From positions 1 through 53,565 of the forward strand of contig NZ_CP108099.1 in the NCBI RefSeq assembly GCF_036194065.1: DNA of 53,565 nt, in the 5' to 3' direction. Under the pieces are notes generated by a model, which was given only the letters and a program-made list of their open reading frames with translations, searched no databases and had not been told where the DNA came from. The position numbers and the translations under genes are program-made. This DNA comes from Streptomyces sp. NBC_00239 (GTDB taxonomy: Bacteria > Actinomycetota > Actinomycetes > Streptomycetales > Streptomycetaceae). Below are positions 406 to 53,002 of this stretch, piece by piece (positions within the stretch are counted from its first letter, which is position 1; every line of letters begins with the position of its first letter).

Positions 406-1041
406 TCAGAAGATGCTGTCCTGGTACGCCCCGGACGGATTGCCCGCGGCGAGGGCGGCGGCTATCGCCTCGTCCAGCCGCTCCGGATCGGCGGCGGCGA
501 TGGCGGCCTGGACCGCCCGCGCCCGCCCCGCCGCGCCCCGCACGTCGGTCAGCGCGTGCCCGGCAAGTCGCCTCCTAGCTGCGGCGTCGCGGTTGTTGTC
601 GCCTCGGGTGCCCGGGAGCCAGTGGCCCGGGTTCTGGCACGCGCCGTGGTCGCATCGGTGCCGCACGACCAGCCCGCCGGCGAGGGCGTCGGCCCCGTGG
701 GCGAGGCGGTAGCCGAACAGGTGGGCGGGCACCACGCGGGAGGTCTGGGTGGTGTGGGACCCTGCGCGGAAGCTCCCGTGCCCCGTGTCGGTGATCGCCC
801 CCAGCCACCACCAGCAGTCGTCCGGACCGCGCTGCAGGACCTGCGCGCGGTAGCGCTCGACGGTTTCCCCATCGGCCAGCAGCGTTCCCCACGGCACCCC
901 TTCCCCGCCCTCCGGGGCGAGGGCTTCCCCACCGGGGTCGGCTTCCCCACCGTGGGGAAGCGGGCCGGGGTCTTCCCCACCCGGGCCCTGGGGAAGGTCG
1001 GGGTGGGGAACGCGCGGGCGGTGCTGCTCGCTGGGGAACAT
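406..1041 (-). CDS. HNH endonuclease-like protein
   Basis: A 211-residue protein whose C-terminal half has the layout of small HNH nucleases of the homing-endonuclease type. It has a DDCWWWLGAI entry, then an H-R-C-D-H-G-A-C cluster, then NPGHW and GTRGDNNRD. In the family these residues coordinate zinc and metal and cut DNA. The first 70 or so residues are low-complexity, Gly/Pro/Glu-rich, because the reading frame crosses the GGGGAAG repeat field. The ATG at 1041 overlaps the TGA of the upstream gene (TGATG), which decides the start and implies translational coupling. It is the last gene of a three-gene minus unit. No methylase or intron is attached, so it could be free-standing or a remnant of a mobile nuclease. 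Confidence 0.72.
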   Translation of the reverse strand: MFPSEQHRPRVPHPDLPQGPGGEDPGPLPHGGEADPGGEALAPEGGEGVPWGTLLADGETVERYRAQVLQRGPDDCWWWLGAITDTGHGSFRAGSHTTQTSRVVPAHLFGYRLAHGADALAGGLVVRHRCDHGACQNPGHWLPGTRGDNNRDAAARRRLAGHALTDVRGAAGRARAVQAAIAAADPERLDEAIAAALAAGNPSGAYQDSIF

Positions 1042-1613
1042 CACCGCTTCACCATCCCGGCCGGGCCGGGGCGGCTCGCCGTGGGGAAGCTCTCGGGCCC
1101 GGCGTGCACGAAACGGGCCTCGGGCCACGGCTCCTCGCGGACCACTTCCCCATCGCTGTACGTAATCGTGACGGCGGTGTCGTGGTCGGGGTCGTACGCG
1201 GCGCTGGTGAAGAACCGCCACCCCTCCGGGTCCCCGTAGATCCACGCCCACCCCCCGGCGAGGGCGTGCGCGAGGTCCTTCACGCGGACGTCGCGCACCT
1301 CGGGCTCGGCCGGCCTCGCCGGGGAGTCACCCAAATTTGGGTGACCGGGCTCGGCTTCCCCGCGGTCGTCCTGGGCGGCCAGCTCGGCGGTCGCCTCGAT
1401 GTCGACCTCGCCGTCGCCGTGGTGGCAGATCACCGCGCCGGTCTCGTCGGTCTCCGTGTACGGCGGGAGGTCCTGGTCGTCGTCCTGGTCGCCGGTGCCG
1501 TAGGTGCGCCGGCCGCAGCCGGGCGCGGTGCACCGCCACACCTGCTCGCCCTCGACCTCGATCCGCTCCGTGATCGTCGCGCACCCCGGACACGTCGGCG
1601 TGACGTGCATCAC
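1041..1613 (-). CDS. zinc-ribbon-like hypothetical protein containing a parS-like site
   Basis: A 190-residue protein not assigned to a named family. Its N-terminus has CPGC followed about 20 residues later by CTAPGC, a likely four-Cys zinc ribbon. The C-terminal part has a compact globular look (GGWAWIYGDPEGWRFFTSAAY). The frame crosses the perfect palindrome at 1326-1345, which forces the peptide HPNLGDS; the same peptide is forced in the ParB-like gene at 45613-46704. The start overlaps the upstream stop as ATGA. It is the middle gene of the operon 2239-406. Confidence 0.65.
   Translation of the reverse strand: MMHVTPTCPGCATITERIEVEGEQVWRCTAPGCGRRTYGTGDQDDDQDLPPYTETDETGAVICHHGDGEVDIEATAELAAQDDRGEAEPGHPNLGDSPARPAEPEVRDVRVKDLAHALAGGWAWIYGDPEGWRFFTSAAYDPDHDTAVTITYSDGEVVREEPWPEARFVHAGPESFPTASRPGPAGMVKR
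1326..1345. promoter_or_regulatory. parS-like palindrome, copy 1
   Basis: Perfect 20-bp palindrome GTCACCCAAATTTGGGTGAC, identical to copies at 7852, 45562 and 45859. It lies inside a coding region. Proposed binding site of the ParB-like protein at 45613-46704; this assignment is inferred from copy number and position. Confidence 0.65.
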
Positions 1614-4878: not shown

Positions 4879-6228
4879 TCATCCGGCCCAGAACCACATG
4901 GTCTGGTCGTCGGTGTCGTGCTTGTACGGGGCGCTGTAGTCGATGCCGGGCCGGTCCGGGTAGGACGGCCGGAGCACGCGGCTGTGGGGGTAGGACTCCG
5001 GGGTGCGGCCCAGGATCGTGTTGATCTGCTCCTCGGCCTCGTCGGGGACAACGCCCTTGACCAACATCAGGGTCGGGTTCGCCTCGACGCCGACCGTGCC
5101 GTCGTCGAGCACTTCCATCTCCAGGTCGACGTCCAGGACGACGTCGAGACCCGCTTCCCGGGCGAGGGCGTAGGCGCTGCGCACGGTCGGCCACGTCATG
5201 CCCTCCCAGGGCACGGTGATGGTGAGCCCGTCGTCGCCGTGCTCGCGCTCGATGCGCAGCCAGTCGATGGGGTCCCAGATCCGGCCCAGGGCGAGGCTCG
5301 GGGATTCGGAGGCGACCATGTGCCCGTCGAACTCGGTGCGCATCCACTCGCGCACCGGGGAGTTGGGGCCGAACTTGTAGCGGGTGTGGTTGGACGGGTG
5401 CCCGCACACCGACAGGTTGGGCACGGACCCGGCGGTGAGCTGCATGTCCTCCATCACCGCGTCGTGCAGCTCGCGGTGGTCGGCCGGCCACTGCTCCCAG
5501 TAGGCGCTCTCCCGCTGCTCCTGGGCGGCGTCCTGGACGGCGGCGTCGGCCGTGCAGGGCTCGCAGCCGGTGACGTGGCGGAGCTGCTCGCGCGAGGCGT
5601 TGGCCTGGGCCCCGTTGGCGGGGTTGGTGACGATGCCGACCCGGTCGCCCTCGACCCACACGACCTTCGCCGGGAAGGGGTCGGCGGGCGGCATCTGGAC
5701 GGTGTCGCCGACCTGGAAGTGGCCGTCTTGCTCCCACGCGGGCGCGGGCGGCTGCGCGGGGACAACGGGTGCGGTGGTCGCCGGTGGCGGGTGCTGGCAC
5801 GAGGGGCAGCCGATGGACTCGGCCGCGTCGGCGGCGGGGGCACCGGCCGCTTCGGCGAGGGCCCGCCAGCACACGGGCCGGCCGGACTCGTCGAGCGTGC
5901 GGCCACTGGGGAAGTCCTCGTCCGGGCCGTAGAACACGGCGACGACCGGCTCGACGCCCGGCAGGACGATACGAGTCGGCGCGATGTGGGGCTCGAACTG
6001 CGGGGCGGGCGGGATGGACGCGAGGCTCTCCCACACCACGCAGTTGAGCAGCTGGGCCAGGGTGCGGCACTCGTGAGTGCCCATGCACGGGTCCCAGGTG
6101 CTGCCGTCGGCGCGCAGCACCTCCAGGCCGTCGGTGACGGTCAGGGTGATGGTGTCGTAGACGTAGGGCTCGATAGCGGGCGCGGTGGCGGTGCGGCGGC
6201 GGTTGCGGAACAGCTGGCGGATGTTCAC
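4879..6228 (-). CDS. hypothetical protein with Cys-rich linker
   Basis: A 449-residue protein of unknown function. The N-terminal part (about residues 1-130) is globular. A CPSCQH motif near residue 145 sits in a Pro/Ala-rich linker, followed by an SH3/KOW-like strand set (FQVGDTVQMPPADPFPAKVV, VGIVTNPANG) and a second CEPC motif near 225. The C-terminal 200 residues are rich in Trp and acidic residues, with no catalytic signature I know. The start overlaps the stop of the membrane protein upstream (ATGA at 6225-6228), so it is translationally coupled. The Cys pairs may bind one metal between them. Confidence 0.68.
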   Translation of the reverse strand: MNIRQLFRNRRRTATAPAIEPYVYDTITLTVTDGLEVLRADGSTWDPCMGTHECRTLAQLLNCVVWESLASIPPAPQFEPHIAPTRIVLPGVEPVVAVFYGPDEDFPSGRTLDESGRPVCWRALAEAAGAPAADAAESIGCPSCQHPPPATTAPVVPAQPPAPAWEQDGHFQVGDTVQMPPADPFPAKVVWVEGDRVGIVTNPANGAQANASREQLRHVTGCEPCTADAAVQDAAQEQRESAYWEQWPADHRELHDAVMEDMQLTAGSVPNLSVCGHPSNHTRYKFGPNSPVREWMRTEFDGHMVASESPSLALGRIWDPIDWLRIEREHGDDGLTITVPWEGMTWPTVRSAYALAREAGLDVVLDVDLEMEVLDDGTVGVEANPTLMLVKGVVPDEAEEQINTILGRTPESYPHSRVLRPSYPDRPGIDYSAPYKHDTDDQTMWFWAG

Positions 6229-7851: not shown

Positions 7852-7871
7852 GTCACCCAAATTTGGGTGAC
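7852..7871. promoter_or_regulatory. parS-like palindrome, copy 2
   Basis: GTCACCCAAATTTGGGTGAC, identical to the other three copies. It lies in non-coding DNA, 9 bases from the 3' end of the group II intron. Confidence 0.65.
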
Positions 7872-7919
7872 TGGCGGGCGGTCGGGTAGCCGGAGCCCAT
7901 CGCTGGGCCCCGGCCCCCT

Positions 7920-7955
7920 CAGAACCGGACGTGCGCCTTTCAACGCATCCGGCTC
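7920..7955 (-). ncRNA. group II intron domain V
   Basis: Catalytic domain V hairpin: stem GAGCCGGATGCG / CGCACGTCCGGTTC with a GAAA tetraloop, one of the most conserved parts of the ribozyme. Its first bases overlap the stop codon of the intron protein. Confidence 0.8.
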
Positions 7956-9762
7956 AAGCAAGCCGCGAGGGCTCCGCAGGGTGGATACTTACGGTCCGAT
8001 TTCCGTCGTTTGCATGATGCTGACGGTGACAATCGGCGTGCACGAGGCTGAGGTTGGCTCGTTCATCCGTCCCGCCGTGCCTCCGGTAAACGAGGTGGTG
8101 CTTGTTGAGCACCTTCCTCGACGCCGCGAACCAGTCGATCCACTCGCGCAGATTGTCCGGCTCGTATTCGGCTCCGTCGATCAACGCCTGACGACAGAGG
8201 GGACACACGCCCTTCTGTCGCGCCGCCAGGTACAAGCTGGTCTTGTCCATCGGCGGCGGCGCTTTGATGCGGCGACGCGCCCGCCAGTAGCCGGTCAGGG
8301 TCGAATCGTCCGGAGACGACGACCCTTTGACCGCGTTATGGCGGGCGTAACGGGTCCAGGCGAACTTCTGGAGGTAGGCACCACTGGGGTGGTGGCCGAA
8401 TACCCAGTTGTCGCGCCTGGCCTTGTTGAACCGGCCGAAATAGTGGCGCTTGATCCACAGCCCCGAGCGGTTCTCGTGGCCACGTTTCGCCCACTTGTAG
8501 AGCAGCGTGAACATGTAGAAGTCCATCGAGCAGAACACCCGATGCGACGCCACACCCCGGTAGTACGCCGTCCAACCCCGCACAATCGGGTTGAACTTGG
8601 CGATCACGGCCTTGGACGGAGCGCCCCGAAGGGCGCGCATTTCGGTCCGGAGCCGTTTTCGGAGCTTGTTGCACGCCTCTCTACTCGGCCTGATGACCAG
8701 CGTGTCACCGTGCTTCTTCACGGAGAACCCCAGGAAGTCGAACCCCTCACCGAGGTGGACGACCTTGGTCTTCGCCTCGTTGAAGCGAAGACCTCTGGGT
8801 GCAAGCCAGTTCATCAAATCCTCTTTGACCCGGAACGTCTCTTCCTTGCTGTGGCACAGGGCCACGAAGTCGTCGGCATACCGGATCAGCACGGGAGTTC
8901 CGGCGACGACGCAGAATTCACGCCCTCTGCGTGTGTCGCGCCTGGCTCCCGCGGCCTCTTCCATCCCGTGCAGTGCGACGTTCAGCAGCAGCGGGCTGAT
9001 GACACCGCCCTGAGGAGTGCCCTCCTCGGTCGGCGTCCAGCGTCCGCCTTCCATCACGCCGGCCCGCAGCCATGCCCGGATCAGGTCCCTGGCGGGGAAC
9101 TGGCCGATCATGGCGTTGAGGTGGTCGTGACTGATGCGGTCGAACGCGCCTTCCAGGTCCGCGTCCAGCGCCCACAGGCGCTTGGCCAGCCTGCCCCTGC
9201 TGAAGGAGCGGATGGTCGCGATCGCGTCCTGGCAGCCGCGTCCGGGCCTGAAACCGTACGATTTCGGCTCGAACCGCGCCTCCCACTCGGGTTCCAGTGC
9301 GTTCTTCACGCGGGCCTGGAGCACCCTGTCACGGATGACCGGGATACCGAGCGGGCGCTGCTTCCCGTTCGCTTTGGGGATGTACACGCGCCGGACCGGC
9401 TGGGCCTTCCACGGGTGCGACCGGTGGCTCTCGGCCGCCAGTCTGGCCCTCCCCGCAGGGGTGAGGACCGTTTCCCCGTCGATTCCTGCGGTCCGGCGAC
9501 CCTTGCTCTGCTGGGTCACCCGCTTCACGCTCACCAGCGTGTTGCTGCGGCTTCTCAGCATGAGCTTTTGCAAGTTGCGGACCCGCTTGAGGTCCCCGTC
9601 CTGCGTCGCCTTGAAGATCCGCTGCCTCAGCCGCCGTACGTTCTCCTCGCACTCGGCCCAGTCGATGCTGTGCCACGCGAGTTTCCCGCCCTCCGGTCCG
9701 TTCACCTCGGGCACACGGGCAGTCGCATCTGCCGCTGTGGTACTCAAGCACGCCTCCGGCAT
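7954..9762 (-). CDS. ltrA: group II intron reverse transcriptase/maturase with HNH domain
   Basis: A 602-residue intron-encoded protein. It has the reverse transcriptase blocks (PKANGKQRPLGIP, SYGFRPGRGCQDAI, DADLEGAFDRISHDHL, GTPQGGVISPLL, catalytic RYADDF at about 295-298), then the maturase X domain (NPIVRGWTAYYRG) and a C-terminal HNH endonuclease (CPLCRQ, KHHLVYRRHGGTD, LVHADCHRQHH). In this family the protein helps splicing and carries out target-primed reverse transcription after bottom-strand cleavage. All active-site residues are present, so it looks functional. ATG at 9762 with GAAGGA upstream. The TGA overlaps the first bases of domain V, so the ORF fills domain IV to its very end. 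The symbol is generic. Confidence 0.92.
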   Translation of the reverse strand: MPEACLSTTAADATARVPEVNGPEGGKLAWHSIDWAECEENVRRLRQRIFKATQDGDLKRVRNLQKLMLRSRSNTLVSVKRVTQQSKGRRTAGIDGETVLTPAGRARLAAESHRSHPWKAQPVRRVYIPKANGKQRPLGIPVIRDRVLQARVKNALEPEWEARFEPKSYGFRPGRGCQDAIATIRSFSRGRLAKRLWALDADLEGAFDRISHDHLNAMIGQFPARDLIRAWLRAGVMEGGRWTPTEEGTPQGGVISPLLLNVALHGMEEAAGARRDTRRGREFCVVAGTPVLIRYADDFVALCHSKEETFRVKEDLMNWLAPRGLRFNEAKTKVVHLGEGFDFLGFSVKKHGDTLVIRPSREACNKLRKRLRTEMRALRGAPSKAVIAKFNPIVRGWTAYYRGVASHRVFCSMDFYMFTLLYKWAKRGHENRSGLWIKRHYFGRFNKARRDNWVFGHHPSGAYLQKFAWTRYARHNAVKGSSSPDDSTLTGYWRARRRIKAPPPMDKTSLYLAARQKGVCPLCRQALIDGAEYEPDNLREWIDWFAASRKVLNKHHLVYRRHGGTDERANLSLVHADCHRQHHANDGNRTVSIHPAEPSRLA

Positions 9763-10288
9763 CCAACTTGTCCTTCGGTTCCGACGCCTTTGCATTGGGG
9801 CTTCAAAGGCTTACCTGATCCACGTGGGCGCCCTTTCGGGCCGGGCCACCAGGGCCCGTATCCGGCGGGTTATGGCGGACAGCGGGTGGAGAGCCACCGC
9901 CCGTTTTTCCCTGACCTTTCGGCCTACCGGCCTTCGCTTCTTGGATCATCCTGTTCCTGCTGGGGAGTTGGGCCTCCCTTGCGGTCGGCTTACCGGTCAT
10001 TCCGGACCCCATCAGGGTTTCCGTGTTCCGCACGCAGAAGATGCGGCTGGGGTGGGCGCCCCCTCTACCCCGTGGCCAGCGGTGTCTCACTACCGATGTT
10101 GCTTGCATCGGAAGCCGCCTGTGCCTTACAGCACCGAGCCCTACCCTGCCGAAAACCAGCCATCGCAGGGGTCCCATATAACGAGGCATTAACCGGGGGT
10201 TCACGCGTGTTCGCCCGTCCAGCCTTCCCCTTACCTGTGGCCCCTCGATGGCCGAGGCGCCCTTGGGCGTGAACGCTCAGCTTCACAC

Positions 10289-10590
10289 CCCGCCGTTACC
10301 AGCGACGCATGTGAGCGCGGGGACGAAAATCGAGACACTAATTCGGAGGAAATCTCTTGTCTGAATCTCTCCACGAGACTGACCTCACTTCTCAGCGTGC
10401 GGCCTCACGTCGCACAGCAAGTTGGTGCGGAAGGGGAGCCTTCCGCAGCAGGGCCGGACCGGGGACGGGCCGGACCCATCGCGCGCGCGTGCGTAGGGGG
10501 GTCCCAAAAGTCCCAAAACCCGGCGGCACGCAGCACAGTGCGCCGGGACCGGGGGGTCTCGGGGCACTGTCGGCGGGGCGGGAGCGGGGG
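10289..10590. other. intergenic region upstream of the intron
   Basis: It holds the 5' exon flank of the intron and no supported gene. Around 10495-10522 lies a short element with the repeated word GTCCCAAAA, similar to one at about 27508-27536. Confidence 0.5.
10535..10570. terminator. hairpin, probable terminator
   Basis: ACAGTGCGCCGGGACC (10535-10550) pairs with GGTCTCGGGGCACTGT (10555-10570) with two imperfect positions and a GGGG loop. It follows the stop of the minus gene at 10591. Confidence 0.6.
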
Positions 10591-42171: not shown

Positions 42172-42495
42172 CCTCCGGAGTCAGCGGAAAGTATCCACAG
42201 GCCAACCGTTCCAAAGTGATCGGTACGGCGACCACCACCCCTCGGGGCGGGGTGATCGGCGCGGGCCCGTCCACCGGGCACGGACACCAGACAGTGTCCG
42301 GTCTGGCGGGCAGTCTGCGCACGTCATCCCGCCCGGCGGGAGGCTGCGCAGCGGTGCGCAGTAGGTCCGTAACGATCGGCGATAACCATGCGGCACATGT
42401 CAGTGCAGGGACATATACAGACAGGAGTGGCCCCGGTGGTGCGTGAAGAGCTTGGCGGCTGCAGCACCACCGGGACCCCGAAGGAAAGGACCTTC
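42172..42495. promoter_or_regulatory. intergenic region before the coupling protein gene
   Basis: About 320 bases without a gene. It holds several short inverted repeats (GGACAC...GTGTCC near 42280-42300, CCCGCCCGGCGGG near 42330) and the hairpin at 42431-42476. A promoter or attenuator for the coupling protein is likely here. Confidence 0.45.
42431..42476 (+). ncRNA. hairpin with GAAGAGCT-GGCGGCT loop, copy 2
   Basis: CCCGGTGGTGC (42432-42442) pairs with GCACCACCGGG (42464-42474). The loop holds GAAGAGCTTGGCGGCT, nearly the same as in the hairpin at 19353-19402. It ends about 20 bases before the start of the coupling protein, in its leader. Confidence 0.5.
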
Positions 42496-44832
42496 GTGAA
42501 CGACAACAGTAAGGCCAGCGTCCTGATCGACTCGACCGACCAGCACGTCGTCAACCAGGTCCCGGACACCGACGTTTCGGCGGCCGGGAAGCCGGAAGAG
42601 ACCTGGAAGCCCATCGAGGGCGACGTGCTCAAGAACGTGCTGTTCACCCCGCGCCCGGTCTTCCACCGGCCCACGGTGAGGCTGACGGCCCTGTCCGTGC
42701 CGGCCACCCTGCTCGCGGCCGAGACGACGACGCAGGACACCGACCCCAGCGGGATGCTCGGGACCATCTTCGGGGGCATCGTCGATGCCGGTGGCACGCT
42801 GTTCGAGGCGCAGCCGCTGCTGGTGACGGCCCTGGGGGTCGGCCTGGTCGGCGCCGGATACATGAAGTTCAAGGGTGAGTTCGACTTCACCCGCGAGACC
42901 GACGGGTTCGCCCCCAAGGGCACGCTGCGCAAGGCGCTCGGCCCCCGCCAGCTGGTCAAGAAGCGCCACGTGCTGCGGCCCAGCCTGGCCAAGGTGCCCG
43001 CGCGGAAGGTGGACACCAACGCGGTCGGCACCTACCTGGGCAAGGACCGTAAGACGGGCCTGCACCTGTACATGGCGATCGAGGACAGCTCCGTGATGGT
43101 CGCCCCGCCCGGCTCGGGCAAGACCGCGAAGCTGGCCAACTGGATCATCGACGCACCCGGCGCGGTCCTGGCGACCTCGGTGAAGCCGGACATCGTCGAC
43201 CACACGGAGCGGCTGCGCGCCCGGGTCGGCCGCATCCTGATCTGGAACCCGCAGGACATCGGCGGCCGGGCCTCGAACGTGGCCTGGGACCCGGTGATGG
43301 GCTGCTCCGACCCGGAGCACGGCGTCGACCGGGCCATGCGCCGCGCCAACTACCTGCTCGACGGCTCCGACGCCACGCGTGGTGTCGAGAACCGCAGCTT
43401 CTGGGAGACGGCCAGCTACTCGGTGCTCAAGGCGTTCCTGTGGGCGGCCGACGCGGAGGGCTTGACCCTCATGGACGTGGCCCGCTGGTCCAAGAGCTTC
43501 CGCAACCACGAAGCCATCAAGATCCTGGAGAAGTACGAGCACCCCGACCCCTACAACCCCTCGCGGCCGGTCGCCCCGAGCGGCTGGAAGGACGACCTGC
43601 TCCAGGTGCAGAAGGTCGAGGGCAAGCCGACCACCGGTGAGAACGTCTTCGGGACGCTGTCCAAGACCTTCATGTTCCTCGACACCCCGCAGGTCCAGCG
43701 GGTCATCCAGGACGCGCACAAGGGCAGCGGGCTCTTCGACATCCGCGGCTACCTGCGGTCGCAGGACACCCTGTACCTGCTCGGCCGTGACACCGGCCGG
43801 GGCGGCATCGGACCGCTGTTCAGCTGCCTCACAGGTGAGATCTACGAAGAGGCCCGGGACATGGCCCCGCTGCAGCCTGGCGGACGCCTGGACGCGCCCT
43901 GGTCGCTGATCCTCGACGAAGCGGCGCTGATCTGCTCCGTGCCGCTGGAGAAGTGGACCTCGGACAGCCGCGGCCTGGGCATCGCCATCCACGCCGTGTT
44001 CCAATCGCGCTCGCAGATCCGGGAGCGCTACGGCCGGGAAGCGGCGAAGACGATCTGGACCAACATGGTCAAGCTCATCCTCGGCGGCATGTCCGACGAA
44101 GAAGACCTCAAGGGCATCTCGGAGCTGTGCGGCCGGCACAAGGAGAAGAGGGAGTCGCACTCGAACTCCCCGGGCCCGGACGGCACCATGCGCCAGTCCT
44201 CCTCGTACACCTGGGTCGAGGTCGACACCATGACCCCGGCGGACATCATGAACCTGGAGCCGGGCGAGATCCTGGTCCTGCGCCGCAACATCGGCGGGCC
44301 GGTCGTCGTCCGCTACCAGGCGGTGTGGGACCGCAAGGACTTCAAGGCCGTGGTCAAGCAGGAGAAGCGGGACGCCAAGACGGCGATGAAGGCGCGCAAG
44401 CGCAAGGACGCCACGGTGCCCGCCTACGCCCCGCCCGTGGCCGCGCCGTTCGTCGAGGACCCGGCGGACCTGTGGGCCCCGCCGGAGCCTGCCAGCCCGT
44501 GGGCTCCGACGGGTGACCCCAGCCCGTGGACGGCGGACCCGGCGGCCAGCGGCTGGGCGTCCGGCTCGATGCCCGGCCCGCGCGACCACCTGCAGGTCGT
44601 GCGCGGCGAGGTCGTCCCGCCGGTGCCCCCGATGCCCACGCACCCGCCGGTCTTCCCCGACCAGCCGGACTTCGCGCCGACCCGGCACCTGGAGCAGGTG
44701 CCGCCGCAGCAGCAGCCGCAGGAGCAGCCCGCCGAGACCGTGCCGGCGGCGGTGCCGCTGCGCAAGACCGGCACCGACGACGCCCCGGTGGCGGACGACA
44801 GCTGGGGCGACGACGACGAGACGGGGTTCTAA
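42496..44832 (+). CDS. TraG/VirD4-type conjugation coupling protein
   Basis: A 778-residue membrane-linked ATPase. Two weak hydrophobic stretches near residues 65-75 and 105-125 precede the motor. Walker A is MVAPPGSGKTAKLANW (about 201-216) and Walker B is WSLILDEAAL (Asp474, Glu475). The all-alpha insertion is NRSFWETASYSVLKAFLWAA (about 299-394), and a TraM-recognition-like segment is GLGIAIHAVFQSRSQIRERY. The family pumps relaxase-bound DNA to the transfer channel. The C-terminal 130 residues are Pro-rich and end DDDETGF. GTG at 42496 with AAAGGACCTTC upstream. The DUF4913-like gene starts at the very next base after the stop. Confidence 0.88.
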   Translation: MNDNSKASVLIDSTDQHVVNQVPDTDVSAAGKPEETWKPIEGDVLKNVLFTPRPVFHRPTVRLTALSVPATLLAAETTTQDTDPSGMLGTIFGGIVDAGGTLFEAQPLLVTALGVGLVGAGYMKFKGEFDFTRETDGFAPKGTLRKALGPRQLVKKRHVLRPSLAKVPARKVDTNAVGTYLGKDRKTGLHLYMAIEDSSVMVAPPGSGKTAKLANWIIDAPGAVLATSVKPDIVDHTERLRARVGRILIWNPQDIGGRASNVAWDPVMGCSDPEHGVDRAMRRANYLLDGSDATRGVENRSFWETASYSVLKAFLWAADAEGLTLMDVARWSKSFRNHEAIKILEKYEHPDPYNPSRPVAPSGWKDDLLQVQKVEGKPTTGENVFGTLSKTFMFLDTPQVQRVIQDAHKGSGLFDIRGYLRSQDTLYLLGRDTGRGGIGPLFSCLTGEIYEEARDMAPLQPGGRLDAPWSLILDEAALICSVPLEKWTSDSRGLGIAIHAVFQSRSQIRERYGREAAKTIWTNMVKLILGGMSDEEDLKGISELCGRHKEKRESHSNSPGPDGTMRQSSSYTWVEVDTMTPADIMNLEPGEILVLRRNIGGPVVVRYQAVWDRKDFKAVVKQEKRDAKTAMKARKRKDATVPAYAPPVAAPFVEDPADLWAPPEPASPWAPTGDPSPWTADPAASGWASGSMPGPRDHLQVVRGEVVPPVPPMPTHPPVFPDQPDFAPTRHLEQVPPQQQPQEQPAETVPAAVPLRKTGTDDAPVADDSWGDDDETGF

Positions 44833-45534: not shown

Positions 45535-45546
45535 GCAAGGCGGCAC

Positions 45547-45596
45547 CAACGCGGAGGGGGAGTCACCCAAATTTGGGTGACTCCCCCTCCGCGTTG
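45547..45596. terminator. 50-bp perfect palindrome containing parS-like copy 3
   Basis: A perfect palindrome with its centre between 45571 and 45572. The middle 20 bp (45562-45581) is GTCACCCAAATTTGGGTGAC. It sits between convergent genes (stops at 45534 and 45613), so it likely serves both as terminator and as protein-binding site. Confidence 0.72.
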
Positions 45597-45612
45597 CCCC
45601 GGGTCTCGACCG

Positions 45613-46704
45613 CTACCGGCCCTTGAGGACCTCGTCGACCGCGTACGCGAGGGACAGGGCGGCGGTGCTGATCTCCTTCAACGTCTCGGTCGGCGCGTCC
45701 TGCAGCGCCCCCGACTCGACCCCGGCCAGCATCCCCTGCAGCAGGTCACGCGTCTGGACGGCCCGGTGCGGGGGTGTGTCGTCCACGATCTCGGCGTCGA
45801 CCACCGACTCGTCGCCGTCGGCGGCCGTCGTCTCGCCGGCCGGGGCTCCGTTCGTCGAGTCACCCAAATTTGGGTGACCTCCGGCCTCGGGCTCCGGCTG
45901 CTCCTGGGCGGCGACCTCGGCATCGGCCGGGGCCATCTCGACCACAACCGGGGCGGCTTCCTTCTTCCTGGACCGCCCCGCCTTCGGCTGCGGCTTCGCC
46001 TCGATCGCCAGCTGGAAGGTGTTCGAGGTCGTCAGCGCCGGGACTTCAGCGCCCCGCGCCAGCTCGACCAGGCCGTCGACCACGGTGGCCGTGACCCGGT
46101 GGCGACGCTCGGCGGCCCACCCTCGCAGCGCGACGTAGGCGCGGGCGGTCACGTCCTGGCCGTGCTGCTCGACCATCGGCAGCAGCTGCTGCACGTGGGA
46201 GTCGGGGATCGCGCGGGGCCGGTCCTGCTGCTCGGTGATGGCCTTGAGCAGGGGCCACTGCTGAATGCGCCGGTTGACCTCCGACTCCGACTCCCCGAAG
46301 CGGTCCTGGCAGTAGTCCGCCCACGTCCGCCCGCCCTGCCGGTGCAGGTTCCGGGCACGGATGGCGTGCGCGGCCTTCCACTTCATCCACTCGGCCCGGT
46401 TGCCGTGGGCGAACGCGGCTTCGCAGTGCTCCAGGTTCTCGACCTCCTGGGGCGTCAGCTCGCCCTCGGCCTCGACCTCGATGGGCTCGGGGATCAGGTC
46501 CGGGGTGAAGGGCTGGGGGCGGTACGGCTCCGGCGGCGGCGAGGTGTCGACCTCTCCGGCCGGCGAGGGGATGGCCACTGCGGCGGCGTCTGCAGCCGCG
46601 GGCTCGTCGGTGGTCTCGGGCTCTGCCTCGGCGGCCTCGCGCTCCGCCCGCTCCCGTTCCTCCCGCTCCTCTTCCTCCATGAGCTTCTTGTAGTTGGCGC
46701 TCAC
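45613..46704 (-). CDS. ParB-like centromere-binding protein candidate
   Basis: A 363-residue protein. The acidic, charged N-terminus (about 1-80) is disordered. Residues 85-220 form a helical DNA-binding-like region (RTWADYCQDRFGESESEVNR, then IPDSHVQQLLPMVEQHGQDV), reminiscent of KorB/ParB HTH cores, but canonical ParB motifs are not clear. The gene holds one perfect palindrome (45859-45878), and a second lies just past its stop. The GTG at 46704 overlaps the ParA-like gene (GTGA). Position and overlap make it the ParB partner; this is inference. Confidence 0.66.
   Translation of the reverse strand: MSANYKKLMEEEEREERERAEREAAEAEPETTDEPAAADAAAVAIPSPAGEVDTSPPPEPYRPQPFTPDLIPEPIEVEAEGELTPQEVENLEHCEAAFAHGNRAEWMKWKAAHAIRARNLHRQGGRTWADYCQDRFGESESEVNRRIQQWPLLKAITEQQDRPRAIPDSHVQQLLPMVEQHGQDVTARAYVALRGWAAERRHRVTATVVDGLVELARGAEVPALTTSNTFQLAIEAKPQPKAGRSRKKEAAPVVVEMAPADAEVAAQEQPEPEAGGHPNLGDSTNGAPAGETTAADGDESVVDAEIVDDTPPHRAVQTRDLLQGMLAGVESGALQDAPTETLKEISTAALSLAYAVDEVLKGR
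45859..45878. promoter_or_regulatory. parS-like palindrome, copy 4
   Basis: GTCACCCAAATTTGGGTGAC inside the ParB-like gene, read there as HPNLGDS. It is 297 bp from copy 3. Confidence 0.65.
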
Positions 46705-47345
46705 GGCAGCAGCCCCTTCTCCTTCATCTCGACGACCAGGTCACCGAAGTGCGAGTCCTTCGCCCCGGTGATCGGGAAGTTCATGCTGTGCGCGTACTGG
46801 CCCACGTTCGGGATGACGGTGTCGAAGACGTTCCACTTCGCGCGCTCCATGCGCTCGGCGTAGTACTTCGTCATGCCCTTGTCGCGCGGGCTGTTGGGGG
46901 AACACCGGTTGAGCAGCACCCACGTGGTCGGCGGTTTGCCGTCCGGACGGAAGACTGAGCTGCGCTTCACGATGTCGCCGAACGGGGTGTCTGCCACCGG
47001 CTTCTCGACGCGCAGCCAGTCCGCGCGGGTCGGCGACATGTGCAGGATCACCAGGTCGGCGACCTTGAACAGGCTGTCGGTGACTGCCGGGTGGTTCTCG
47101 CTGTGGCCGCAGTCCGCGAGGCTGATCTTCCCCTCGGGAAGCTCGACCTCCTCGTGGAAGCGGGAGCTGGCGTTGAGGTGGACCGGGAAGGTGAACTTCC
47201 CCGCCAGTGACCAGGCCCGGAACTGCTGGCTGTGGTCGGCGTCGAACCCCTCGACGTCGTAGCCGTGCTCCTGGAGGGCGTGCCCGAACCAGGCGGTGTC
47301 CGTCGTCTTCCCCATGGTTCTGGGACTCGCATTCACGATGAGCAT
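46701..47345 (-). CDS. ParA/MinD-like ATPase with altered Walker A
   Basis: A 214-residue protein of the ParA type. Its P-loop is NASPRTMGKTTDTAW (Lys13 of GKT kept). Canonical ParA proteins have KGGxxGKT; here the signature lysine position is Ser7. Later segments fit the family: ISLADCGHS (switch), VADLVILHMSPTRADW, and WVLLNRCSP. In partition systems such ATPases bind DNA in the ATP form and are released by ParB. It is coupled to the ParB-like gene. The ATG at 47345 lacks a ribosome site and may be leaderless. Confidence 0.75.
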   Translation of the reverse strand: MLIVNASPRTMGKTTDTAWFGHALQEHGYDVEGFDADHSQQFRAWSLAGKFTFPVHLNASSRFHEEVELPEGKISLADCGHSENHPAVTDSLFKVADLVILHMSPTRADWLRVEKPVADTPFGDIVKRSSVFRPDGKPPTTWVLLNRCSPNSPRDKGMTKYYAERMERAKWNVFDTVIPNVGQYAHSMNFPITGAKDSHFGDLVVEMKEKGLLP

Positions 47346-47977: not shown

Positions 47978-50900
47978 CTACATGTCGACGTCGAGGTCGA
48001 TCTCCGGCGCGGGCGGCGCCGGGGGCTCCGGTGCCGGGACTGCGACGGGCTCCGGCTCGGGGGCCGCGGGCTCCGGGGTGGCGTCGCGCTCGGCCCGTGC
48101 CAGCTCCTGGCCCAGCCGTTCGTAGTCCGTCCCGTACCCGCCGAGACCGGTGTCGCGGCGCTCGCGCTCCAGCTCCTCGGCCTGCGGCTGCTGCCGCTCC
48201 GCCTCCTTCTGCCGCTCAGCTTCCTGCTCCCGCTCCTGGGCGCGCTGCTGCAGGATCTCCTGCGCGAGGCGGGCCTGCTCCATCGCCTCCATCAGCTGCT
48301 CCTCGACGGACTGCGTCGGCGCGGCCGGGGCGGCGGGAGCGGCCGGGGCCTCGGGCTCCTCGATCTCGGGCTCCGGGGCGCGGCGCTCCAGCTCGGTCCG
48401 GGCGAGGTCGGCTTCGTCCCGCACGGTCTGGGTCTCCTCGACCCACGCCTCGCGGGCCTGCTGGACCTCCTGGTACCGGCTCGCGCGGTCGCCCATCGTC
48501 TCGGCGATGTCGCGGCTGGTCTGGGCGCGGTCGAGGGTCTCCTTCACCAGGTCGCTGGGGTCGATCTCGGCCTGCAGCGTGGGCACCTGCTGCAGCGCCA
48601 TCGACTGGGCGAGGGCCTCCTGGTGCTCGTTGTAGCCGGTCGCGGTCTGCGCCTCGTACATGGCCTGGGTGACGCGCTCCTCGTGCTCGGCGGCCTCCTT
48701 CTCCGCCTGCTCCTGGGCGCGCAGCTCCATCTGCACGGCCTGGTCCTTGAAGTCGCGCTCGGCGGTGAACGCCTTCTGCATGTCGTCGGCGACGTACGGC
48801 GGCGCCCACTCTTCCTCGCGCTCGGCACGCTCGATCATCTGCCGCAGCGTCTCGTCGGACGCGCGGGCGATGTCGGCTTCCTTCTCGTCGATGCCCAGGG
48901 CACGGCGCGCGCGCTCCCAGTCTGCGCGGGCCTCGACCGCACCCTGCGGCGGGGCCTGGCCGATGGCGTTGGTGTCGTGGTCGTAGCCGTGGGCCTCGCG
49001 GTAGCGCTCGACCCGGCCGGCGCGGCGCTCCCAGTCGGCCCGCTCGGTCGGGTCCTCGGGCACCGGGCCCAGCCGGTCAACGGCCCACGCGGGCTGCTCC
49101 TCGGCGACGCGCTGGCCCAGCCGCTCGGTGCGCTCGTCCATCTCGACGGCCCACTCCTGCAGGAAGCGGCCCAGGTCGCCGTCCAGGTCCGGGGTGCGGG
49201 CCGTGTAGGAGTCCATCGCCTCCCAGCGGGCCTCGCGCTCCTCGGCCTGGCGCCGGGCGACCTCCTGGTCCTGACCGGCGTGCAGCACCTCGACGTTCTG
49301 TGCGAACGCCTCGTTCTGCCGCATCAGGTCCTCGAAGTGCGGGTGCGCCTCGGCCTCGACCGGCTCGGGGATGTCGACCAGCTGCTCGACGTCGGCGTCC
49401 GTCATCTCCTCGGCGGCCCGCAGCGCGGCGGCCAGCTCCGCCTCCTGGCGCTCGATCGTCTCCGGGTCGGTGCCGGCGTGCAGCGTCTCGACCCCGGCCT
49501 GGGTGGCGAGGGTCTGCTTCATCAGCTCGGCGTGCGGGTCGCTCTGCTGCGCGGCCTCGGCCGCGCGCTGCAGCTCCTCCGGGTCGACCGGCGCCTGCCC
49601 GGCCTCGACCGCGTCCTCGACCTTGCGCTCCTGCTCGGCGAGGGCGGCACGCTGCTCGGCCTCCTCGGCGCGGATCTGGTCGCGCTCGACCAGGTTGTAC
49701 GCCTTGTTCAGCCGGTCGTGCAGCACCTTGGCGACGTCGTCGGCGGTCTCCAGCTCGCGGGAGCGGGCGGTGCGCACCAGCAGGTCCTCGGCGTCGAATC
49801 CCTGCTCCTCGACGTGCCGGGCCAACCGCAGCAGGGAGCCGAACGCCTCGCTGCTCGCGCACCGCTCGTAGTCCTCGGTGCCGATGGCCTGCAGCAGGGC
49901 GTTGCCGAAGCGCTTCTCGGCGTCCTGCTCCTTCACGCCCGACCACACCGGCTCCAGCACGGCGAGGTGCTCGCGGCGCTCCAGCTCGGCCTCGATCGTC
50001 TTCGTCGCGGTCAGCTCCAGCCCGCTGCGCTGCAGCGTGGAGTCCAGCACGGCGAGGTGGTGGGGGATCTCCTCCTGCTTGAGCCCGTCGCCGTCCCGGT
50101 GGGTGATGACGTACCCGAAGTTCTCCATCTCGCCGCGGGTGAGCATGACGTACAGCGCCTCGCGGTTGGTCGAGTTGGGATCGACCAGGGAGTGGCAGAC
50201 CCCGACCGTGCGGCCCTGCGCACCGTGGACGGTCGCGGCGTAGGCCAGCTCGACGTGCTCCTTCACGTATCCGGCCGGGAGGTGCATCTGGGAGCCGTCC
50301 TCCAGCTTCACCATCAGCGCCCCGTTGTCGCTGATCCCGGTGACCTCGGCCACCGTGCGGTTGACCGCGAAGCTGCCGTTCTCGGCCGTGATGTTCCGGT
50401 TGTTGCGGCGCAGCTGGATCAGGTCGCCGACACCGGCCTTGGTCTCGATGCCGTGCTCCTCGCGGCCGGTACGCAGCACCACGCCGTCCTCGGAGACCTT
50501 GCCCGCGCGCACCAGGTCGGCGCGGACCCGGGCGGACAGCTCGGCGACCTGGGCGTTGTCCTGGGCGATGAGCAGCGGGTTGCGGCCGTCGAGGTGGTCG
50601 GTCAGCCATGCCTGGTAGGCGCGCTCGGTCATCTCCTCGGCGGACCCGCCGCGCCACCGGCCGTGCAGCTCGTAGGCGGCCAGCGCCTCGCTGTCGCCCT
50701 CGCGCAGCTGGAGGGAGGCGTCGGCCTCCCACTGGCGCACGACCTTCTCGCCGGTGACCGGGTCGGTGTCGCGGAAGCGGCGGACCTCGTCCAGGACGTG
50801 CACGCCGGGTGCGTCCTCGACCCACTGGGCGAAGATGCCGCCCGCGCCCACGGCCGTGAGCTGGTGGTGGTCACCGGCCGGGACGCACTTCGCGCCGGCG

Positions 50901-53002
50901 GCCTCGATGAGCGCCCGGACCTGGTCCATGTCGCTGTTGTCGGTCATACCGGCCTCGTCGACGATGACCAGGGCGCCCGCCGGGATGCGGTACTTCTCGG
51001 CGTCCGCGATCGGGCGGCCCTCGGCGATCGACCGGTTGGCAATCAGCATCATCTCGATGTTGGCGACGTTCTCCACGCCCTCGTCGCGCAGCACCTCGGC
51101 GGCGCGCTGGCCGCTGGCCAGACCGATGACCTTGCGGCCCTCGTGCGCCTCCCACACCTCGGTCAGCGCGGCCAGCGTGTAGCTCTTGCCCGCGCCGGCC
51201 GGGCCGACCAGCAGGTCGACCTTGCGGCCGGAGGTGGCGGCGGCCCGGACGAAGTCGGCCTGGCGGCCCTTGAGCCCGCGGCGCTGGATGACTTCCTCGA
51301 CCAGCTCGCTGGGCACGGTCGGCGCCCCGCGCTTGCCCGCGAACTCGGCCAGTCGGCCCTCGGTGCGCAGGGCCTCCTCGGTGGCGTACCGGTCGAAGGT
51401 GTCGGGGTTCGGCTCGTACTTGAACGTCCCGTCGGTGCGCTGCAGCTCGGCGGGGACCTCGACCAGGGCGGGCGCCTTGGTGAGCACCACGCCGTTGTCG
51501 GCGGTCGGGGAGAGCGCGTCGTCGGCCAGCTGGTTGAGCAGGTCGCGGACCTGCTGGCGCTCCAGTCCGCCCAGCGTGTCGGGGAGCTGCCGGTTCAGCT
51601 CGACCAGCAGGTCAGGGCGCGTCCAGGTGGGCTTCGCCTCCTGCACCGCGGCGATGGCGCGGCGCTGGATGACCTCGGGGTCGAACTCCTTGGCGGGGCG
51701 GTGCAGATCGTGGATGGCGGACTCTTCGGCGATCCGCTCGGGCACGTCGGCCAGCGACTCGCGGAAGCGGGCCTGGCTCGACGCCTCCCAGCGCTGGAGC
51801 AGGGTTTCCCTGGTCACAGCGTCGTGCTTCTTGGCCGCGCGCTGCCGGAGGCTGACGTCCTCGCTGATCCGGGCCAGCGTGTAGGCGGAGGGGGCGACGC
51901 CGTACTTCTCCTCGAACGCCTTGGCGACCTCGGCGACCTCGGCGGTGATGGCGGTGCGCCGGCTGCTGAACGAGTCCCGCAGGTCCTGGTCCACGCCGAC
52001 GATCTCGCGGGCCTTGCCGTCCGGGCGCATCTGCACCCGCCAGCCCATCACGCGCTCCAGCTCCTGCTCGGCGACGCGCTCGGCGAGGTGCCCGGCGGCC
52101 TGCTTGTGCCGGAACAGGCCCGTTCCGTCCAGTGCCCGCCACACCTCGCGCTCGCGGCCGGTGACCGGGTCGACGTCCACGCAGCGGACCTTGTTCAGCA
52201 CGGCGGCGTGGACGTGCAGCTGCGGGTCGTCCTGCCTGCTCGTGTGCTGGGCGAACGCGGCCACGATGAACTTGTCGGCCTTGACGTACTCGCCGCTGGT
52301 GCGGCCGTCCTTGCTCGCGCCGTGGTGGCCCTTACGGGTGTACCCGGCCTCGTCCTGCATGTGCTCCAGACCGGCCTGCACGCCCGCCTTCCAGCAGTCC
52401 CACAGCTGGTCGGCCTGGCGGCTGAACTTCTGGGCCGTCTCCAGGTCGCCGGCCTCGCGCGCCTCGGCGGCCTTGACCTGCAGCGCGGCGTGCGCCACCG
52501 ACCACGACTTCGGAGCCGAGAACGTCAGGTCGTAGTACAGCTTCGCGCTGGGGGCTTCCTTGCGCGTGCTGATCTCGATGGCCTTGAGCTGCTCGGGGCT
52601 CAGCACCCCGCCCGGGGTACGGGCCTCGGCCGCGGCGAGGTTCTTCTCCAGGCGCTTCTCGTACGCCTTCTCGTAGTTGCGCGGCGCGTCGCCGAGACGG
52701 CACTCCTTGCGGATCTTCTTCTCCGCCTGGGCGTACTCCTCGCTGCCCTCGGGGTGCGGGATCGACGCCAGCCGGGCGTACATCTCGTCCCGCTTCCGGG
52801 GGTCGATGAAGTCGCTGTACAGGTCCTCGAAGACGTCGTTGGCGACCTCGCCCGACAGTCCAAGGTCCGCGATGCCGTCGCCGGTCCAGAAACCGGGCGG
52901 CTCCCCCTGCAGCTCGATCGAGCGCAGGTAGTAATGCTCGGCACCGGCACCGACCGTCTTGGTCAGGTAGCCGGGATCTGAGCCTGCACTGATCGACAAC
53001 AT
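47978..53002 (-). CDS. traA: MobF-type relaxase-helicase (TraA/TrwC-like)
   Basis: A 1674-residue relaxase. The N-terminal TrwC domain has a Tyr pair (Tyr24-Tyr25 in AEHYYLR, with Tyr12 nearby) and the metal-binding His triad (His253, His263, His265 in DDPQLHVHAAVLN). The helicase part has Walker A LVGPAGAGKSYTL (about 598-610), Walker B VIVDEAG (Asp682, Glu683) and YAATVHGAQGRTVG (about 921-934). The protein nicks oriT, stays bound to the 5' end and unwinds the strand. Residues 1156-1190 and 1221-1256 repeat a LMxQ...LHAGxD unit. The C-terminus is coiled coil and then Pro-rich, ending EIDLDVDM. The ATG at 53002 lacks a ribosome site; TACTCT lies 9 bases upstream, so a leaderless message is possible. 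Confidence 0.9.
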   Translation of the reverse strand: MLSISAGSDPGYLTKTVGAGAEHYYLRSIELQGEPPGFWTGDGIADLGLSGEVANDVFEDLYSDFIDPRKRDEMYARLASIPHPEGSEEYAQAEKKIRKECRLGDAPRNYEKAYEKRLEKNLAAAEARTPGGVLSPEQLKAIEISTRKEAPSAKLYYDLTFSAPKSWSVAHAALQVKAAEAREAGDLETAQKFSRQADQLWDCWKAGVQAGLEHMQDEAGYTRKGHHGASKDGRTSGEYVKADKFIVAAFAQHTSRQDDPQLHVHAAVLNKVRCVDVDPVTGREREVWRALDGTGLFRHKQAAGHLAERVAEQELERVMGWRVQMRPDGKAREIVGVDQDLRDSFSSRRTAITAEVAEVAKAFEEKYGVAPSAYTLARISEDVSLRQRAAKKHDAVTRETLLQRWEASSQARFRESLADVPERIAEESAIHDLHRPAKEFDPEVIQRRAIAAVQEAKPTWTRPDLLVELNRQLPDTLGGLERQQVRDLLNQLADDALSPTADNGVVLTKAPALVEVPAELQRTDGTFKYEPNPDTFDRYATEEALRTEGRLAEFAGKRGAPTVPSELVEEVIQRRGLKGRQADFVRAAATSGRKVDLLVGPAGAGKSYTLAALTEVWEAHEGRKVIGLASGQRAAEVLRDEGVENVANIEMMLIANRSIAEGRPIADAEKYRIPAGALVIVDEAGMTDNSDMDQVRALIEAAGAKCVPAGDHHQLTAVGAGGIFAQWVEDAPGVHVLDEVRRFRDTDPVTGEKVVRQWEADASLQLREGDSEALAAYELHGRWRGGSAEEMTERAYQAWLTDHLDGRNPLLIAQDNAQVAELSARVRADLVRAGKVSEDGVVLRTGREEHGIETKAGVGDLIQLRRNNRNITAENGSFAVNRTVAEVTGISDNGALMVKLEDGSQMHLPAGYVKEHVELAYAATVHGAQGRTVGVCHSLVDPNSTNREALYVMLTRGEMENFGYVITHRDGDGLKQEEIPHHLAVLDSTLQRSGLELTATKTIEAELERREHLAVLEPVWSGVKEQDAEKRFGNALLQAIGTEDYERCASSEAFGSLLRLARHVEEQGFDAEDLLVRTARSRELETADDVAKVLHDRLNKAYNLVERDQIRAEEAEQRAALAEQERKVEDAVEAGQAPVDPEELQRAAEAAQQSDPHAELMKQTLATQAGVETLHAGTDPETIERQEAELAAALRAAEEMTDADVEQLVDIPEPVEAEAHPHFEDLMRQNEAFAQNVEVLHAGQDQEVARRQAEEREARWEAMDSYTARTPDLDGDLGRFLQEWAVEMDERTERLGQRVAEEQPAWAVDRLGPVPEDPTERADWERRAGRVERYREAHGYDHDTNAIGQAPPQGAVEARADWERARRALGIDEKEADIARASDETLRQMIERAEREEEWAPPYVADDMQKAFTAERDFKDQAVQMELRAQEQAEKEAAEHEERVTQAMYEAQTATGYNEHQEALAQSMALQQVPTLQAEIDPSDLVKETLDRAQTSRDIAETMGDRASRYQEVQQAREAWVEETQTVRDEADLARTELERRAPEPEIEEPEAPAAPAAPAAPTQSVEEQLMEAMEQARLAQEILQQRAQEREQEAERQKEAERQQPQAEELERERRDTGLGGYGTDYERLGQELARAERDATPEPAAPEPEPVAVPAPEPPAPPAPEIDLDVDM

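Follow-up and report, generated by a model that had tools for sequence, protein, structure and literature searches.

A probable ParT-like partition system with its own palindromic parS and an unusual ParA on a contig of Streptomyces sp. NBC_00239

Why does one perfect 20-bp palindrome, GTCACCCAAATTTGGGTGAC, recur in four exact copies within 53,565 bp of DNA, two of them beside a pair of overlapping genes that resembles a plasmid partition module? The question is raised by contig C5 of Streptomyces sp. NBC_00239 (assembly GCF_036194065.1, contig NZ_CP108099.1, positions 1 to 53,565), which is analyzed here in its entirety and is referred to as the window, and in which the copies begin at 1326, 7852, 45562, and 45859. 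The gene pair is very probably a partition system of the ParA-ParT-parS-like kind, with its own centromere (parS) and an unusual ParA. The evidence consists of the copies themselves, their co-occurrence and linkage with the genes, the selection on the DNA of the in-gene copy, the homology to ParT, the predicted protein architecture, and the site types, which track the protein tree.

A chance origin of the four copies was ruled out, given that none was found in 100 dinucleotide shuffles, and a phage origin was rejected, with no exact 20-mer in a collection of viral contigs. No further copy with up to three mismatches is present in the window, and none with up to two mismatches in the remainder of the 9.3-Mb, five-contig genome. 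Two of the proposed parS copies belong to the gene pair, one within the parB-like gene (45859..45878), where it forms the codons of HPNLGD in the linker region, and the other 31 nt past its stop (45562..45581). The parB-like gene (45613-46704, minus strand) is an open frame of 363 aa, predicted to encode a ParT-like centromere-binding protein, and the parA-like gene (46701-47345, minus strand) is an open frame of 214 aa, the two overlapping by GTGA. The initial annotation had described four exact copies in 53 kb that could not be due to chance, together with a ParA-like gene and an overlapping DNA-binding-like gene beside two of them, and both descriptions hold in position and in reading frame.

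The 363-aa protein is not a canonical ParB of the CTPase type, as it has no ParB N-terminal CTPase domain and no Pfam match up to E 0.1. The searches of PHROGs and NCBIfam with this protein also returned no match, Foldseek with its model gave none at E 0.001, and a profile built from 11 ParBs found no sequence relative in the PDB. The model consists of helices only, with no strands and therefore no CTPase fold, and predicts an N-terminal tail, a long helix (85-117), a helix-turn-helix (HTH) and middle domain extending to approximately residue 235, a disordered linker (approximately 240-311), and a two-helix C-terminal part (312-362).

The relationship that emerges is with ParT of the plasmid SCP2, which the accessible part of a 2025 publication (PMC12260392) presents as a centromere binder without a CTPase, which loads at parS and slides independently of CTP, and whose parS, located by ChIP-seq, lies within its own gene. 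The profile of the window's clade matches SCP2 ParT with 42 bits, and a blastp search with ParT matched 33 of the 33 family proteins, the window protein at E 1e-7. This homology is supported by profile, alignment, and tree, and concerns the middle domain, where a DNA-binding HTH is predicted; a candidate inverted-repeat parS is likewise found within and beside the parB-like gene. The window protein begins MSANYKK, without the conserved, ParA-binding SRR N-terminus of the SCP2-type ParTs, and because of this it would be placed beside the SCP2 subfamily rather than within it. Given the homology to ParT, a wholly new centromere-binding family was discarded, and the distinct family that had been suggested earlier turns out to be a distant homologue of SCP2 ParT.

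Does the site then travel with the gene? In a genome scan for GTCACCCAAATTTGGGTGAC, based on one genome per species, the 20-mer was found in 28 stretches from 16 genomes, solely of Streptomyces, Kitasatospora, and Streptantibioticus, and in 11 of these the 363-aa protein also has a strong homologue (E at most 2e-38). Among 392 genomes of the window's genus, the 20-mer is present in eight, and the ParB was also found in six of these. A profile search for the ParB in 121 genomes (G000-G120) produced a match in 13, at E <1e-90 in four (G000, G046, G055, and G088), and the 20-mer occurs in exactly these four and in 0 of the 117 others (nine with weaker matches, 108 without a match); this four-for-four overlap corresponds to 1 in C(121,4), or approximately 1e-7, which is a guide only, as the genomes are related. 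In G055, the exact 20-mer lies 108 kb away from parB and the copy within parB has one mismatch, and in Kitasatospora MAA19 the exact 20-mers and parB are on different contigs. In PLSDB, a tblastn search with the ParB returned 56 records, the best 15 of which are all within the 25 actinobacterial records that match the site, and the weaker 41 have no site match; four Klebsiella records match GTCACCCAAATTTGGGTGAC over 18 bases only. This co-occurrence with the gene pair supports the earlier proposal of a partition module with the 20-mer as its likely centromere.

The positions of the copies provide further insight, in particular with regard to the possibility that the palindrome serves not as a centromere but as the operator for a repressor encoded on the plasmid, a role that the ParB-like protein itself might play. 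In 19 clade members, counting copies with up to three mismatches, 18 have a copy inside parB and 18 have one 4-78 nt past the parB stop, and only two of the 16 members with a readable parA start have a copy within 300 bp upstream of parA, which is unlike the distribution of an operator. The SCP2 parS identified by ChIP-seq is likewise inside parT (PMC12260392, the part available). On the other hand, a 20-bp palindrome would fit an operator and a centromere alike, a further copy lies between divergent genes in two related plasmids, pSHJG2 has a copy in the equivalent position, next to a small ORF in its annotation, and in two Kitasatospora plasmids a copy is found 115 and 125 bp upstream of parA. 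Taken together, an operator seems unlikely. Two Kitasatospora plasmids of 214 and 241 kb have four copies each, with up to two mismatches, around parAB, and the 10-12 kb examined in them include no traG or relaxase shared with the window, their ParBs being 40-52% identical to that of the window in the matched part.

Plasmid 2 of NBC_01717 has homologues of the window's traG, orf233, and relaxase, but a parAB of the SCP2 type (69.6% to SCP2.04c), with TGTCCCCAATTGGGGACA inside parB and a single remaining 20-mer, located in a 42-bp palindrome. By comparison of the sequences, this plasmid appears to be a natural cassette swap.

Whether the in-gene copy is maintained as DNA was assessed in 18 ParB genes, after duplicates of one genome had been dropped. 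The copy is exact in 13 of the 18, has one mismatch in two and two mismatches in two others, and encodes HPNLGD or a close variant in 17 (the miss being L068), over a set in which ParB identity in the matched part ranges from 37 to 90%. Each of the six HPNLGD codons is kept in 13-15 of the 14-16 sequences that retain the residue. The rarity of the codons is a stronger point than their identity, given that, across five window genes, CCA is used for one Pro in 217 (at the site itself), AAT for two Asn in 69, and TTG for six Leu in 255, the site included. The same peptide is read from the 1326 copy (1326..1345, a proposed accessory parS), which lies inside an unrelated ORF (1041-1613, minus strand) whose homologues in three related plasmids have no HPNLGD, and pSTRVI02 encodes its copy in a different frame, as ITQIWVT. 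For these reasons, the in-gene 20-mer appears to be conserved as DNA. The converse, that selection acts on the peptide HPNLGD and that the codons used merely happen to spell a palindrome, could draw on the fact that the linker copies are all in one frame; a single frame is, however, to be expected, as TGA interrupts frame 2 and frame 0 would read VTQIWV. As the codons concerned are rare, as two of the window copies are either noncoding or unplaced and another belongs to an unrelated ORF, and as pSTRVI02 uses another frame, this explanation is barely credible.

A similar picture is obtained from more distant members of the family. At seven distant loci, each par locus has its own A/T-centred palindrome, and a repeat search found no convincing direct repeats there. 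In a first unseen set, for which the prediction had been recorded beforehand, eight of eight loci have at least one A/T-centred palindrome, with 13 palindromes in 22.2 kb of par region (four of which form one cluster in pSVL1) versus one in 103.0 kb of flanks, and a mean of 0.08 palindromes over 100 simulated sets. The cluster in S. vietnamensis pSVL1 (L080, 6594-6846) consists of four GCTCTCCAATTGGAGAGC-type palindromes upstream of parA. A second unseen set, drawn from genomes and including some close relatives of earlier loci, gave palindromes at 10 of 11 loci, with 11 palindromes in 30.7 kb versus one in 39.3 kb; those of L094, L099, L101, and L103 have a mismatched pair. As a positive control, the palindrome rule returned a single match in an 8-kb SCP2 stretch, an 18-bp repeat inside parT, which probably represents the SCP2 parS. 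The string CCCCAATTGGGG has 10 occurrences in 16 whole records, nine of which are at par loci, mostly at sites already seen, the other being at 14887 in SCP2.

By protein alignment, the SCP2 repeat in parT occupies the position at which L046, L074, and L084 have their palindromes, as do two members of the window's clade, pSTRVI02 and Streptomyces H39-S7. In the window, this position corresponds to the codons of KAITEQQDRP (46216..46245, minus strand, coordinates derived by hand from the protein numbering), where there is no palindrome, although one is present in the clade members L078 and L030. In a tree of 34 proteins, 12 site labels require 11 changes, which is the minimum possible, and the site types thus follow the protein tree in this sequence comparison. 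The labels were made by hand, eight of them are single proteins and uninformative, and the tree carries a long-branch warning; supports are 95/93 for the window label, 100/97 for type II, 99/98 for type III, and only 62/15 for type IV.

A number of observations weigh against the proposed partition system. The initial annotation regarded a site widespread without the gene pair as the outcome that would speak against it, and, beyond the 11 genomes with a strong homologue, the scan of 16 includes one with a distant homologue (E 1e-5) and four with none. In one of these four, S. tricolor, the gene was probably lost through an assembly break, because traG, orf233, and the site sit at a contig edge. 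Two genomes (G264 and G370) have the 20-mer without a ParB in the surrounding 3 kb or anywhere else in the genome, and exact 20-mers occur without a clade-I protein in S. hokutonensis, NRRL B-24484, NBC_01549, and SID12488. The co-occurrence on plasmids that the initial annotation had asked about is similarly partial, as it extends to all of the best 15 ParB records in PLSDB, with no ParB match in 10 of the 25 site records. Six of these 10 were inspected (the others being NBC_00122, NBC_00048, the second NBC_00868 plasmid, and P9-2B-2), and the 20-mer is exact only in NBC_01717, with one or two mismatches in the other five. The positions of the 1326 and 7852 copies are unmatched in the relatives compared. 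The miss in the second unseen set is L100, where the ParB match is in two pieces. In the codon control, the rest of parB has mean codon identities of 0.97 (His), 1.0 (Asn), 0.89 (Asp), 0.80 (Leu), and 0.61 (Pro and Gly); only Pro, Gly, and Leu therefore stand out, and the argument from codon conservation is partly weakened.

In three of the four cases without a clade-I protein, the solo 20-mer is part of a palindrome of 32-78 bp, and in S. hokutonensis there are two bare copies; such solo sites may act as terminators, may be relics, or may depend on the system of another plasmid. The S. hokutonensis copies are at 10447 and 17034 of a 94-kb contig (L088), whose sole detected ParB-family gene is on the canonical-ParA side, and in whose own par locus a different palindrome, of 64 bp with one mismatch, precedes parA. 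In NRRL B-24484 (L090), the exact 20-mer is at the centre of a 78-bp perfect palindrome (4987-5064); a ParA-like gene lies approximately 1.5 kb away, next to one that, on visual inspection, encodes what looks like an ordinary CTPase-type ParB.

Extended palindromes also raise the possibility that the copy behind parB is a plain transcription terminator, and that the other copies are its spread-out relics. The 45562 copy is at the centre of a 50-bp perfect palindrome (45547..45596) between convergent genes, the predicted RNA fold of 45535-45612 is strong (-60.2 kcal/mol, z -7.6), several solo copies form palindromes of 32-78 bp (L006, L007, L010, and L018), and one copy is still present in NBC_01717 after its cassette swap. 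By contrast, the 20-mers at 1326, 7852, and 45859 of the window are bare, without extended arms, two of them in coding sequence, and the arms vary between lineages, while the 20-mer is exact or nearly so, which makes a mere terminator very improbable. The 45547..45596 palindrome, whose central 40 bp are identical (40/40) in eight PLSDB records, may double as a parS and as a hairpin that terminates transcription in both directions. At L029 (2433 and 2704), L006, L010, and L018, the arms around the 20-mer vary by lineage and yet remain palindromic (32-78 bp), as if the palindromy of the arms were itself maintained.

The second component of the partition system, the motor, is less conventional. 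The ParA-like protein matches the NCBIfam model ParA_partition at E 6e-9, far below the cut-off of that model, and ParF (4dzz) by sequence at E 2.5e-5, and its AlphaFold2 model (pLDDT 86.5) finds TP228 ParA and ParF at the top of a Foldseek search (E 3e-10 and 8e-10, TM 0.72-0.81). Its Walker A region, SPRTMGKTT, is missing the signature lysine, and SPRTx[GA]KTT is found in 15 of 15 aligned ParAs of the clade. The predicted fold is that of a ParA, and the protein is termed ParA-like because the signature lysine of the deviant Walker A is missing. In the tree, the side of the window, which includes groups with SPRSMGKTT and KPRTMGGTT, is split with support of 100/99 from nine proteins whose partner ParA has a KGG-type motif, SCP2 among them; in L086, the annotated ParA start falls inside the motif. 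In the KPRTMGGTT partners (L072, L073, L094, and L095), both Walker A lysines are replaced. The window ParA has 83% identity with the ParAs of L023 and L056 but 54% with the ParA of L057, a locus at which ParB reaches 90% identity with the window ParB in the matched part and the site is the same; the site therefore goes with ParB, and ParA appears, from these comparisons, to be exchanged more freely than ParB within the clade.

By analogy with SCP2, as set out in the available part of PMC12260392, binding, clamp closure, sliding, stimulation of ParA, and plasmid stability would be expected of the window system. The 363-aa protein would bind the 20-bp palindrome as a dimer, with one HTH per half-site, close via its N-terminal helix without CTP, and then slide off the site, accumulating by the two copies that lie within parB and just past its stop; the copies at 1326 and 7852 would be two more such sites. 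Through its N-terminal tail, the protein would then contact the ParF-fold ATPase located on the nucleoid, with the plasmid moving along the gradient of that ATPase. The contig is itself probably a circular plasmid, because the genes located past the relaxase of a relative resume at the opposite end of the window. The par module is flanked by a TraG/VirD4-like coupling protein (42388-44832, plus strand) and a TrwC/MobF-type relaxase (47978-53002, minus strand), as it is in several close relatives. The second proposed accessory copy (7852..7871) is 9 bp from a match to a group II intron (approximately 7881-10317, minus strand; Rfam RF00029 at 7881-7957 and a further Rfam match at 10275-10317), which contains a maturase ORF (7954-9795).

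In the literature found, experimental work on ParATS concerns one plasmid, SCP2, and the accessible part of that report (PMC12260392) mentions 41 sequence and 71 structural homologues in Datasets S1-S3. Those datasets, or the supplementary tables of PMC13245405, may well already list the 363-aa protein or its clade. Besides these two, no open-licence paper on this site or branch was recognized, and the string GTCACCCAAATTTGGGTGAC was not found in the open-licence literature, where one Salmonella paper contains shorter inner strings only. A broader and tentative reading, at somewhat less than even chances, is that of a second branch of CTP-free ParT systems, whose motor has no signature lysine (PRTxGKTT), nor, in a sister group, the second lysine (PRTMGGTT), which would imply a re-wired or nucleotide-poor ParA, and whose centromere has repeatedly changed in sequence and moved, mostly inside or behind the gene of its binder. 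If this is true, the family would offer a natural series of protein-site pairs. The window system is a separate branch with a different type of motor, with candidate centromeres for approximately ten further lineages and protein-site pairs open to direct tests, and the predicted sites offer a route to the study of the joint change in specificity of centromere and binder and of the generality of CTP-free clamps. In addition, the altered Walker A provides a sharp test of the role of the signature lysine, and a function is suggested for many genes annotated as "hypothetical protein" on Streptomyces plasmids.

Among the known systems, the window ParA resembles ParF of TP228 (type Ib) in size and predicted fold. 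ParF has the deviant Walker A KGGxGKT, which reads PRTMGKT in the window, and its partner, ParG, is a small ribbon-helix-helix ParB, unlike the partner in the window. Other ParA-like proteins without the signature lysine include McdA (SGGQGKT) and BcsQ (RGGVGTT), according to the accessible parts of PMC9178275 and PMC6328274. They share this absence with the window ParA, although, judging by PDB titles, McdA positions carboxysomes and BcsQ is a regulator of cellulose secretion, whereas the window ParA belongs to a plasmid par operon, and in its sister group (PRTMGGTT) the second lysine has gone too. ParABS1 and ParABS2 of SCP1 are also Streptomyces plasmid partition systems, with several inverted-repeat parS near each operon, but their ParBs are CTPases, unlike the 363-aa protein (PMC13245405, as far as its available part goes).

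The closest likeness is with SCP2 ParATS, which shares a ParB-like protein without a CTPase fold, a parA-parT operon, an inverted-repeat parS (a candidate one in the window) in coding sequence, and a protein composed of a long N-domain helix, an HTH middle domain, a flexible linker, and a C-terminal part, as predicted for the window protein. The two systems nevertheless differ: identity between the proteins is 24% over 133 aa, the SRR start is lacking in the window, the site has 20 bp and an AAATTT centre rather than the 18 bp and AATT centre of the SCP2 repeat, the copies are mostly shifted to the linker and behind the gene, and a short ParF-like ParA without the signature lysine takes the place of the SCP2 ParA with its QKGGAGKTT.
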